Positions 32,840-35,748 of a stretch of 49,312 nt of DNA are shown here, piece by piece (positions within the stretch are counted from its first letter, which is position 1; each line of letters opens with the position of its first letter). Location of the stretch: assembly GCA_020627655.1 (NCBI GenBank), contig JAHDGM010000018.1:1-49312 (forward strand). The letters run 5' to 3'. Below the pieces are notes generated by a model. That model was not told the DNA's origin, did no database searches, and worked only from the letters and a program-made list of their open reading frames with translations. Source of the stretch: Hellea sp. (GTDB lineage Bacteria; Pseudomonadota; Alphaproteobacteria; Caulobacterales; Maricaulaceae). The position numbers and the translations under genes were made by a program.

Positions 32840-33583
32840 ATGAATACGTTCTCTCGCAAAAATACAATGGCCGCTGTTATCTTAGCCGCGGCAACTGTTG
32901 GACTACCAACTATGGCTCAGGCCGGAAACGCTAGTTCAGCCGCTTATCGTTATGAAGAATGTAAAAAGAAAGATACCGAGAACCAAGTCTTGGCCGGACT
33001 GGCTGGCGCGGTCATCGGCGGTGTTACTGGGTCACAAGTAGCCGGTAGTGGTGCTCGATCAGAAGGATCTGCTCTGGGCGCAGCAATCGGAGCCGCCGCA
33101 GGTGTCGCTATCGCTGATAAAGACTGTAAGGAACGAGCCGGTTATCGGAGTAATTATTACCCAACCAGCAATACTTACCGTAACAACAATTATTACGGCG
33201 GGAATACTTACCGGACACATGGTACATATGGGCATTCAAGCCATCACCCTGTAACCCGCACACCGGGCCGGGCATATGGTAATCGTCATGTCCATAATAA
33301 CCGTGGTTATACCCCATACCAACGTAGCAACCACGTTTGCCGGAACAATGAATCCCGCCTGGAGCATATCAAATGGGAAATCAGAGAGTTACGTGAAGAA
33401 CGTAAATATTTGGAACGCGAACGCCGCTATTCTCGATATGATCGTAGAATTGACCGCAGACTCCGCAAAATCGGTTATAAAATAGCTGAATTGAAGCGAG
33501 AGAAACAGTGGATCAAAGATAGACGCCATGATCGCGATTATTATCGCGACCGCGATCGGGATCGCTATTACTCTTACTACTAG
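32840..33583 (+). CDS. Exported glycine-zipper protein with charged helical tail
   Basis: The 247-residue product has a signal peptide (cleavage likely after TMAQA), a glycine-zipper module (about 50-92, LAGAVIGGVTGSQVAGSG...ALGAAIGAAAG), an Asn/Tyr/Gly/His-rich linker, and a C-terminal highly charged helical segment (about 165-240, REERKYLERERRYSRYDRR) rich in Arg, Lys, Glu and Tyr that may form a coiled coil. An envelope location is likely. It is the first of three tandem genes sharing the zipper module but with different tails. AAAGGAG lies six bases before the ATG and a strong terminator follows. Confidence 0.78.
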   Translation: MNTFSRKNTMAAVILAAATVGLPTMAQAGNASSAAYRYEECKKKDTENQVLAGLAGAVIGGVTGSQVAGSGARSEGSALGAAIGAAAGVAIADKDCKERAGYRSNYYPTSNTYRNNNYYGGNTYRTHGTYGHSSHHPVTRTPGRAYGNRHVHNNRGYTPYQRSNHVCRNNESRLEHIKWEIRELREERKYLERERRYSRYDRRIDRRLRKIGYKIAELKREKQWIKDRRHDRDYYRDRDRDRYYSYY

Positions 33584-33817: not shown

Positions 33818-34987
33818 ATGAACCGTTTTATTATGACAGCCGCCAGTGCGGCGCTGCTGGCTGTGCCGTGCACAGCGCAAGCACAAATTCTAGGCCTTGA
33901 TGGCAATGAACTCGCTGGGGCAGCGATCGGTGCTGGAATCGGAGGGGCCATCGGATCTAACCTTGCAGGCGGCGGTGTCCAGGACGAAGGAACGGCAATT
34001 GGAGCCGCTCTTGGCGGCCTGGTAGGCTACGGCATTGCTAATCAGCGCAACCGTTCGCGCTATGGTAATCACAGCGGTGGAAACCATTATAATGGTGGAT
34101 ATGGCCATAACACTGGTTACGGCTACAATACCGGTCATGGTTACAATGGCGGATACAGCCACGTTGGAACTGGCCACAATGGCGGCTATTACCAAGGGTC
34201 TTCTCGTTATGGTTCTGCGCCATATAATATTCCAGGACGCAGCCGTTATGGATATAGCTATGAGTATTCTTATGGCGGTCAAGGTGGATATGCCGCGCCA
34301 GCTGTAGCTGCACCGTCATATGTTCATAGTGGCCAATACATTACCAATACATATACCGTGCAACCAGCTTATCGTCAGGTAACCGTTCAGCGTCCCGTCG
34401 AAGTCAGTAAAGAAGTAACCGTCATGAAGCCGGTTACCACTATGAAACCTGTCACGATGACACGCGAAGTGACAAAGTCACGTCCGGTTACGAAAAACCG
34501 CGCTGTTACAAAAACCCGTCCAGTTACGCGTACACGTTCTGTTACGAAAACCCGCCCGGTAACGAGAACACGTCCCGTCACGCGGACTCGTGAAGTTACA
34601 GTCATGAAACCTGTAACCGTTATGAAACCAGTCACTGTCATGAAGCCTGTAACTGAAATGCAGCCGCATACAGAGATGGAAAATTACACTGATCATGAGA
34701 CCTATACCGATCATGAGTCTTACACTGCTCAAGAATCCTATACGGATCAGGAAACATATACAGATTACGAATCTTATACAGATTACGAATCATATACGGA
34801 TGTTGAAACTTATACGGATATGCAGGCTCACACTGAAATGCAGCCGCATACAGAAATGCAGACACAGACCATCATGCAGAATGAAACGGTGATGCAGCCG
34901 GTCGGCTCCAGCCACGGCGAAGTCTATTGTTACGCTGGCAGCTCCAAACGTTACGATAATATGGGTAAAGTCATCAGCTGCAATTAA
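33818..34987 (+). CDS. Exported glycine-zipper protein with 29 charge-segregated hexapeptide repeats
   Basis: The 389-residue protein has a signal peptide (cleavage after about residue 22), a glycine zipper (about 32-75, containing GSNLAGGGVQDEGTAIGA), a Gly/Tyr/Asn/His-rich region (80-183), then 29 uninterrupted hexapeptides (185-358) and a short C-terminal part with Cys371 and Cys388. Repeats have the form x-x-P/x-V/Y-T-x. The first sixteen are basic (MKPVTV, TRPVTR), the rest acidic (HETYTD, YESYTD), with net charges of about +18 and -19. I recognise no such family. A surface, structural or adhesive role with the two blocks pairing is an inference. The repeats differ mainly at synonymous sites, so the protein sequence is selected. 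It stands behind a sigma-54-like promoter and ends at a terminator. Confidence 0.8.
   Translation: MNRFIMTAASAALLAVPCTAQAQILGLDGNELAGAAIGAGIGGAIGSNLAGGGVQDEGTAIGAALGGLVGYGIANQRNRSRYGNHSGGNHYNGGYGHNTGYGYNTGHGYNGGYSHVGTGHNGGYYQGSSRYGSAPYNIPGRSRYGYSYEYSYGGQGGYAAPAVAAPSYVHSGQYITNTYTVQPAYRQVTVQRPVEVSKEVTVMKPVTTMKPVTMTREVTKSRPVTKNRAVTKTRPVTRTRSVTKTRPVTRTRPVTRTREVTVMKPVTVMKPVTVMKPVTEMQPHTEMENYTDHETYTDHESYTAQESYTDQETYTDYESYTDYESYTDVETYTDMQAHTEMQPHTEMQTQTIMQNETVMQPVGSSHGEVYCYAGSSKRYDNMGKVISCN
34370..34891 (+). repeat. Coding tandem array of 29 degenerate 18-bp units
   Basis: The units encode the hexapeptides of the gene at 33818. Thr occupies position 5 in 28 of 29 units. Neighbouring units that give the same peptide (for example two YESYTD, three MKPVT) differ at third codon positions, so this is an old array kept by selection and not a recent slippage expansion. 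It is not a CRISPR array: there are no spacers and the reading frame is continuous. Confidence 0.9.
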
Positions 34988-35145: not shown

Positions 35146-35748
35146 ATGAAGTTCAAAATTGCATTTGTTTTAGGCGCCGCCGTCACTATGGCAGCGATGC
35201 CAATAACGGCATCAGCTCATGATAATGGGTATCATCACCGTCATCAGAATAGCGGCGACAACGGATTAATAGGTGCTGCTATCGGCGCTGTAGCCGGTGG
35301 TGTTTTAGGTTCAAATCTCGCTGGCGGAGGCGTTCAAGACGAAGGTACTGCGATAGGTGCTCTCATAGGCGGCGTCGCGGGTTATGCGATCGCCAGTGAT
35401 GGAAGTAACTCTCGTCACTATTATGGCAATAATAACGGGTATTATAATAACTCTTATTATGGAAGTAACGGGTATTATAGCGGAGGATATAACAACTACC
35501 CTTCTTATGGGCATAGTACTTATTATACCTCACCGCCTCGCTACTATAGCCAGCCACACTATTATACGACCTCACATTACGGGTCACCATATTACGGCGG
35601 AAGCTATTATAATCGTCCGGGTGTGAGCCTGACAATTTCAAGCGGTAATTACGGCAGTTACGGCGGAAACCATTACTATAGACCTCGCTATCGTAAAAAG
35701 TATCGTCATCGTAATCACCATAATCATAATCACTATTGCCGTCATTAA
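35146..35748 (+). CDS. Exported glycine-zipper protein with Tyr/Gly-rich and His-rich tail
   Basis: The 200-residue product has a signal peptide (cleavage likely after TASA), a His-rich start, a glycine zipper (about 38-84) sharing the 17-residue block SNLAGGGVQDEGTAIGA with the protein at 33818, then a Tyr/Gly/Asn/Ser-rich tail with many YY pairs, and a final basic, His-rich segment (KYRHRNHHNHNHYCRH) that could bind metal. An envelope or surface location is likely; function unknown. AAAGGAG precedes the ATG at good spacing. The shared block shows it is a paralogue of the gene upstream with a different tail. Confidence 0.78.
   Translation: MKFKIAFVLGAAVTMAAMPITASAHDNGYHHRHQNSGDNGLIGAAIGAVAGGVLGSNLAGGGVQDEGTAIGALIGGVAGYAIASDGSNSRHYYGNNNGYYNNSYYGSNGYYSGGYNNYPSYGHSTYYTSPPRYYSQPHYYTTSHYGSPYYGGSYYNRPGVSLTISSGNYGSYGGNHYYRPRYRKKYRHRNHHNHNHYCRH

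Follow-up and report, generated by a model that had tools for sequence, protein, structure and literature searches.

A hexapeptide-repeat array in a secreted protein of Hellea, probably a giant beta-hairpin whose two arms change length in step

Extended, charge-segregated rods of the bacterial envelope are exemplified by the proline-rich linker of TonB, whose EP and KP segments are built of X-Pro dipeptides, not hexads; we know of no length matching between these two segments. Rods whose length is set by repeat copy number are represented by the periscope proteins (SasG, Rib and SHIRT-domain proteins), which, according to the available text of PMC8201768, consist of tandem repeats in the envelope, as does the array described here. 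Short Thr/Val-rich repeats in secreted proteins are likewise shared with the YTV family (PF07639), which, judged by sequence, appears to be the family nearest to the array; YTV proteins, however, are described in the accessible part of PMC8567305 as cell-wall proteins of planctomycetes, whereas the relatives of the array belong to Hellea and a sister genus of the Alphaproteobacteria, and the array studied here is devoid of Cys. The N-terminal base of the protein under study resembles SlyB, Rick_17kDa_Anti and TraT in possessing two short glycine-zipper segments. TraT additionally has two membrane helices and a long beta-hairpin (residues 180-205), which, in the available portion of PMC12658005, joins neighbours in a ring sheet, whereas the predicted strands of the array comprise 86 residues each. 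Long twisted beta-hairpins, called potentially novel, have also been reported among predicted repeat proteins (PMC13055192, available in part); there the repeat unit itself is the hairpin (four units), whereas here the whole array would form a single one.

The gene in question is located within a window of 49,312 nucleotides from Hellea sp., this being the whole stretch of DNA that was analysed, and its parts are listed in Table 1. Three glycine-zipper genes occur in a row and in the same direction between 32840 and 35748, of which only the middle one harbors the array. The designation of its product (here, the window protein) as a glycine-zipper protein in the first-pass annotation is reasonable, although the protein itself falls below the Pfam cut-offs: glycine-zipper models were its only Pfam matches, with PF13441 at E 3.2e-4 and 20.8 bits (cut-off 28.9), PF05433 at E 1.8e-3 and 18.6 bits (cut-off 24.2), and PF13488 at 16.7 bits (cut-off 25). 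The zipper also matched SlyB of the PDB at E 0.02, and both flanking paralogues exceed the PF05433 cut-off (25.0 and 29.1 bits). The glycine-zipper base probably anchors the protein in a membrane. The C-terminal motif of the window protein contains CYAGSSKRYD.

Table 1. Coordinates of the array gene, its parts and its neighbors in the window
Feature	Position	Strand	Basis
Array gene in full, 389 aa, product a secreted glycine-zipper protein bearing the hexads	33818..34987	+	
Probable cleavable signal peptide, residues 1-22, without clear lipobox	33818..33883	+	By eye from sequence
Glycine-zipper, residues 30-75, two short membrane-type segments	33905..34042	+	Sub-cut-off Pfam matches, SlyB (PDB)
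Gly/Tyr/Ser-rich linker, residues 76-184	34043..34369	+	Sequence
Left (basic) arm, residues 185-270, one continuous predicted strand	34370..34627	+	AlphaFold2, hexads
Tip loop, residues 271-275 (PVTVM), apex at residue 273	34628..34642	+	AlphaFold2, covariation peak
Right (acidic) arm, residues 276-361, one continuous predicted strand	34643..34900	+	AlphaFold2, hexads
Conserved tip block, residues 239-304, most alike between both genera	34532..34729	+	Sequence comparison
C-terminal motif GEVYCYAGSSKRYD..G, residues 367-389, also present in relatives of the base protein that lack the array	34916..34984	+	
Upstream glycine-zipper paralogue without hexads	32840..33583	+	
Downstream glycine-zipper paralogue without hexads	35146..35748	+	

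The array had been described as an unbroken run of 29 hexads in which Thr occupies position 5 in all but one, with a net charge (Lys/Arg minus Asp/Glu) of about +18 in hexads 1-16 and about -19 in hexads 17-29. A recount returned these same values for residues 185-358 (34370-34891), and the resulting charge split of 37 was reached by none of 100,000 shuffles of the hexad order. The outer hexads are weakly charged, as had also been claimed, but there is no simple inward rise; each block instead follows a weak-strong-weak course, the strong hexads being 7-12 (+2 each) and 18-19 and 21-25 (-2 each), while hexads 13-17, which adjoin the boundary, are weakly charged again. Across the 13 array proteins introduced below, every proline of the array (241/241) occupies hexad position 3, and glycine is absent from all of the arrays.

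A whole-protein search of the window's genus produced matches in nine of 10 genomes, its own included (genome G003 gave none), and the array was present in eight of the 10. In genome G005, an intact base protein without the array is encoded (L012), and the module is thus dispensable there. An array profile matched 13 of 137 genomes of the family, in two of its 19 genera, and five of 398 genomes of the order, all within these same two genera. A named collection contained 12 loci, from Hellea sp., uncultured Hellea or uncultured Caulobacterales and including Hellea balneolensis DSM 19091; the organism names of these loci span both genera, and the assignment of the second genus (g7) as that of H. 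balneolensis rests on the identity of the array protein of genome G023 to that of DSM 19091. Once identical proteins were merged, 13 distinct array proteins remained, the window protein included: eight from the window's genus, all carrying the glycine-zipper base, and five from g7, which are stand-alone, secreted proteins with a different N- and C-terminus and no zipper. G023 also encodes a base protein without the array (L032). Because the array is borne by a glycine-zipper protein in one genus and stands alone in the other, and because the base protein also occurs without it, sequence comparison marks the array as a portable module, with two distinct kinds of carrier. Among the seven other array-bearing genomes of the window's genus, glycine-zipper matches lie on both sides of the array gene on the same contig in four and on one side in three.

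In other genera, the inserts borne by the same glycine-zipper base protein, with its YCYxG..RYD-type ending, are of quite another kind: L031 has VVEYVDRP-type repeats and L047 repeats of approximately 31 residues with CPAGTTDLGNGTCQEP, while L012 and L032 have no array. Judged from these sequences, the insert position resembles a site at which repeat modules are exchanged. Beyond the order, the array profile matched 12 other genomes among 385 of the class (best E, 5.6e-13; loci retrieved from nine, L088-L096) and, at E 1e-5 or better, seven others among 398 of the phylum (best E, 1.3e-18; loci retrieved from five, L097-L101). In the frames inspected at these 14 loci, from 14 of the 19 matching genomes, the central block that typifies the array (see below) was absent, the frame inspected at L093, L096 and L098 possibly differing from the actual profile match. 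The frames inspected were unrelated simple repeats, such as the 938-residue frame of L097, in which KPVTAD is repeated, or other hexad proteins. L091 and L095, from another alphaproteobacterial family, encode secreted-looking proteins with hexads of the YPVTVQ/QQPVVM type.

The first-pass annotation had recognized no known family, and at curated cut-offs this holds for the window protein, while a fragment of an orthologue (the left arm of L007) passes those of YTV and Cementoin. NCBIfam returned for the window protein a glycine-zipper match and weak array matches (EntC, E 0.005; EntB, E 0.0057; a ribonuclease, E 0.2), all far below cut-off. Among PHROGs, one family without a known function matched residues 181-218 (E 2.5e-4), and two more, at 0.012, matched elsewhere than in the array. 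Neither a plasmid search with the window protein nor a search of PDB sequences with the array profile gave a match. The left arm of L007 scored 38.8 bits against Cementoin/trappin (PF10511; cut-off 27), a repeat associated with transglutaminase substrates, those of L008, L009 and L010 remained below, the window segment gave no Cementoin match, and one of the five stand-alone g7 proteins matched at E 0.0059; the match of L007 probably reflects shared hexad composition only. The passing of both cut-offs by this one fragment is a case of low-complexity models meeting by hexad composition.

The arms were compared through a central block common to all 13 proteins, T(R/K)(E/Q)VTVMK....V(M/L)KPVTVMK....E(M/L)QP, on the left, hexads were counted from the conserved first one up to this block, and on the right from there to the conserved end. 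The left/right counts in the window's genus were 16/13, 16/13, 15/12, 22/19, 21/18, 26/23, 24/21 and 26/23, and those in g7 were 20/18 once and 17/15 four times. Across proteins the arms thus range from 15 to 26 hexads before the block and from 12 to 23 after it, with totals of 27 to 49 in the eight window-genus orthologues, a variation which lies between species, not strains. The left-minus-right difference is nonetheless constant, being 3 in 8/8 window-genus proteins and 2 in 5/5 g7 proteins, the end markers being different in the two genera. When the right-arm counts of the eight window-genus proteins are permuted, one of the 10,080 distinct orders yields a constant difference; given that the proteins are related, this probability and the z-scores reported below are overstated. 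A MAFFT alignment made with no constraint on the arms gave equal gap totals left and right of the core in 11/11 rows, nine of them gapped: 48/48, 48/48, 54/54, 12/12, 18/18 and 0/0 for the window's genus (alignment A3, comprising six of the eight orthologues, with L009 and L011 left out) and 18/18 four times and 0/0 once for the five g7 proteins (A4). By parsimony, the six length states of the window's genus require at least five changes and the two of g7 at least one, none of which is unmatched, the tree of the eight window-genus proteins being poorly supported at its base (two of five inner branches starred). Arms measured to the outer markers QR(A/E)VTV and YK(S/T)ETV differ by 2 in all seven proteins having both (the window protein is without the right one), so that in each arm the extra hexads sit outside the core but inside the same outer block. 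Recent DNA duplication was considered as the cause of the matched arms and is unsupported, since identical hexads mostly differ in their codons (mean nucleotide identity of 0.72 to 0.93 for hexads with at least three copies; the three copies of TRPVTR in the window array have three DNA versions, at 0.72) and since the consensus hexads of the two arms differ.

For each trial apex, the mutual information of residues placed symmetrically about it was set against that obtained with shuffled right arms. If the residue that opens the MQPHTE hexad is called c, apex c-8 falls on residue 273 of the window protein. Before any model was made, the window's genus gave its highest value at c-8 (z 36.6), with c-9 second (27.7), and c-7 (22.7) and c-8 (22.6) were level in g7. 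When near-duplicates were removed (5 and 3 proteins) and a circular-shift null was applied, c-8 came first in both genera, as it also did among all 13 proteins, and none of 300 circular shifts reached it; the shifts equally failed to reach c-6, c-7 and c-9, and this test was made after the models had been seen. Earlier placements of the apex, first on V4 of MKPVTV (offset 3) and then at offset 2, were replaced by c-8 following the residue scan, and the E5/R3 partners of L009 and L011 at offset 3, which are not opposite one another in the final register, were dropped as support. Because apices c-6 and c-9 outscore c-8 when only charge pairs are considered, and because the contact score of the window protein is flat (31-33) for apices 270-277, the register may be taken as certain, on these sequence comparisons, to about two residues.

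One partner rule stands out most clearly. For left-arm hexads of the window's genus with Lys/Arg at position 6, the right-arm hexad at offset 2 has Glu/Asp at position 2 in 26 of 30 cases, versus 1 of 112 where Lys/Arg6 is absent; in g7 the figures are 16/17 versus 7/61, the rule being equally good there at offset 3 (16/17 versus 7/56). This rule belongs to apex c-6, and at c-8 it becomes merely a diagonal contact. In the c-8 register, position 5 pairs with 5, 2 with 2, 4 with 6 and 1 with 3, and the resulting Thr-Thr ladder would explain why Thr5 is the most invariant residue; of the 86 direct pairs of the window array, eight are opposite in charge and one is like. The window's genus (the window array and L005-L011) has 142 mirrored cases, and in 71 of these Lys2 faces Gln2; g7 has only seven such pairs. 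Lys-Gln cross-links between the arms were considered and set aside, the pair being rare in g7.

The window protein has a same-face charge score of 32. Shuffling its hexads without restriction gives a mean of 0.7 (0/5,000 reach 32), and shuffling them within each arm a mean of 27.9 (21/5,000 reach it). Because the within-arm shuffles average so high and the score is flat across the apices given above, the charge fit stems mostly from the block layout and to a lesser part from local order. Among the 13 array proteins, the right block is always negative (-6 to -19), the left block varies from 0 (L034) to +18, and the net charge of the array from -13 to +4, on which ground charge balance was rejected as the cause of the matched arms. 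Of the pairing of a basic with an acidic strand that the first-pass annotation had envisaged, the acidic right block was found throughout, whereas opposite net charge is not strictly kept, as L034 (left 0, right -12) still has matched arms; homologues without charge segregation had been named as evidence against the idea, and L034 comes close to being one. In these sequences, arm length and local partners are conserved more strictly than charge balance.

Structure prediction, which had been named as a check, was performed on monomers only, using AlphaFold2 with residues 161-389 of the window protein and alignment A3 and with the H. balneolensis protein and A4. In both models the arms pair as an antiparallel hairpin which closes a five-residue turn at the apex. 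For the window protein, strands 25-110 and 116-201 of the segment correspond to residues 185-270 and 276-361, with the loop at 271-275 and the apex at residue 273 (c-8); 13 of 18 ten-residue array blocks exceed pLDDT 90, the loop block has 72 and the pTM is 0.28. The predicted paired region thus reaches residue 361, slightly past hexad 29, and its apex does not coincide with the charge boundary at 280/281. For the H. balneolensis protein, strands 42-144 and 150-252 flank apex 147 (also c-8), with blocks mostly at pLDDT 73-86, 59 and 69 at the loop, and a pTM of 0.23; the low pTM values may be due to the thinness of the ribbon. A Foldseek search of the PDB with the window model gave at best E 6.2e-4 (TM 0.08), and VIA gave at best Z 3.8 for the H. 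balneolensis model. Overlaps with the stem hairpins of pore proteins, phage collars and flagellar rings are partial only, with very low TM or Z values, and neither these nor the viral matches were accepted as relationships. Matches to viral models (BFVD) reached TM 0.31 of the query, and the top ones include unnamed human herpesvirus 6 proteins, which we suspect to be predicted hairpins from translated simple repeats and hence a warning about AlphaFold2 on repeats. The midpoint of residues 185-361 is also 273, and the program may simply fold any array at its midpoint. For this reason, and since confident false folds are known for repeats (PMC11795689, in its available part), the models are regarded as agreeing with the covariation, not as proof.

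We propose, at a probability of roughly 0.6, that the array forms one giant antiparallel beta-hairpin, likeliest serving as a length-variable mast. Folding back through beta pairing of the two blocks, as conjectured in the first pass, is strongly supported by the matched arms of 13/13 proteins, the mirror covariation and the two models, and we hold the antiparallel pairing of the arms to be real with little reservation; judging from the models, the pairing probably occurs within one molecule. Residues 185-270 would run outward and residues 276-361 back, paired about residue 273, to give a ribbon of approximately 27 nm in the window protein and 25 to 47 nm in its relatives, assuming 0.33 nm per residue. 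The face formed by even positions is predicted to bear R/K-E, R/K-Y and V-D partners, and that formed by odd positions the Thr-Thr ladder together with Pro opposite Met, His or Gln. Prolines confined to one parity could all point away from the partner strand, an arrangement which a two-stranded ribbon would need and a wider sheet would presumably not tolerate; their restriction to odd positions therefore fits a two-stranded ribbon whose outer edges cannot take up further strands.

When the two genera are compared, the 12 residues flanking the apex on each side show an identity of 0.75-0.92; over the following 18 it drops to 0.48-0.79, and farther out to 0.21-0.61, a fall which is partly due to unaligned inserts; the comparison thus points to a conserved tip and a shaft variable in length. 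Both ends of the array would lie at the base, with the glycine-zipper probably in the membrane and the most conserved sequence at the tip, and so the simplest function would be that of a rigid mast carrying this tip away from its membrane base, its length tuned by hexads gained or lost in both arms together. We put forward this function tentatively, at somewhat less than even odds, and the conservation of the tip may reflect a mere folding nucleus. The longest ribbon would exceed the usual periplasm. The family of Hellea includes prosthecate bacteria (PMC11556061, as far as available).

Four other explanations have to be weighed against the hairpin mast. Matched arms and covariation would equally be expected if identical molecules paired with one another, as domain-swapped dimers or as head-to-tail chains building a fibre or mesh, and the K/R and E/D partners hold either way; the five-residue turn closed in both models, which are of monomers only, and the conservation of the hinge region, which exceeds that of all other parts and is well explained by a tight turn, argue for pairing within the molecule and render this alternative quite unlikely. 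The hairpin could also be a building block, its ribbons stacking into a lamina or cell-wall-like matrix as has been suggested for planctomycete YTV proteins, whose hexad style is similar to that of this array. The left-arm fragment of L007 exceeds the Pfam YTV cut-off (24.2 versus 21 bits), and YTV proteins have been found in cell-wall preparations, according to the accessible part of PMC8567305. The left arm of L008, however, scored 12.5 bits, below the cut-off, those of L009 and L010 gave no match, longer segments of six orthologues gave a best E of 0.028 in one of the six, and the window protein had no YTV match at E up to 10. YTV proteins are, furthermore, described as cysteine-rich, and the 29 hexads of the window contain no Cys; regular prolines would also be expected to hinder edge-to-edge growth, and we regard such a matrix as unlikely, if deserving of some weight.

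The two remaining explanations have no defined pairing of the arms. In the first, the array is a disordered block polyampholyte governed by its overall charge balance alone, as in a condensate or a salt-dependent complex; this would be in keeping with the extreme segregation of the window protein and with the negative right block of all 13 arrays; against it stand the position-specific covariation and the exact matching of the arms despite the wide range of net charge and the uncharged left block of L034, and we consider it extremely improbable. A beta-solenoid, polyproline-type rod or other extended repeat, with the hairpin as an AlphaFold2 artefact, is favored by the viral matches, among them the human herpesvirus 6 proteins suspected to be artefacts of this kind. 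It also draws on the errors of the program on repeats noted above. The matched arms and the mirror covariation, however, are independent of AlphaFold2, and neither would have a reason without pairing; a fold of this type is accordingly thought very improbable.

When repeat proteins differ in length, the usual interpretation is drift or a rod that has merely become longer. Here, two separate stretches of one gene change their copy number in step, which constitutes direct evolutionary evidence for the fold and offers a natural experiment in the origin of compensating length changes. If the ribbon is confirmed, the array would represent a minimal nanoscale rod, simple in its genetics and adjustable in length, with an apparent built-in aggregation block, and the role of the module in the envelope of prosthecate marine bacteria would become testable. 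Among the matches listed in open full-text literature, available in part, no single two-stranded ribbon of this sort was found. The array may be a previously undescribed architecture, in which the repeat copies of the two arms are matched much as bases are in an RNA stem; we give an even chance to the fuller claim of a novel, portable architecture in which a single two-stranded ribbon of up to approximately 47 nm gains and loses hexads only in equal numbers at mirrored places and holds up a conserved tip as a mast of adjustable length.

The array has both common and differing features with the periscope proteins, as these are described in the available text of PMC8201768. Both they and the array, in its inferred role as a mast, would hold something functional at a distance from a base. 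The periscope rod, however, is a string of folded domains, with its N-terminal ligand domain and its wall attachment at opposite ends, whereas the array consists of six-residue units predicted to form one ribbon, has both termini at the base in the models and bears no separate domain at its tip. The repeats of periscope proteins are highly similar, whereas the identical hexads of the array mostly differ in codons. In the array, moreover, repeats have to be gained or lost at two sites simultaneously. By this analogy, the array would be a variable-length envelope rod of new construction, one which works like the periscope proteins and is built differently.
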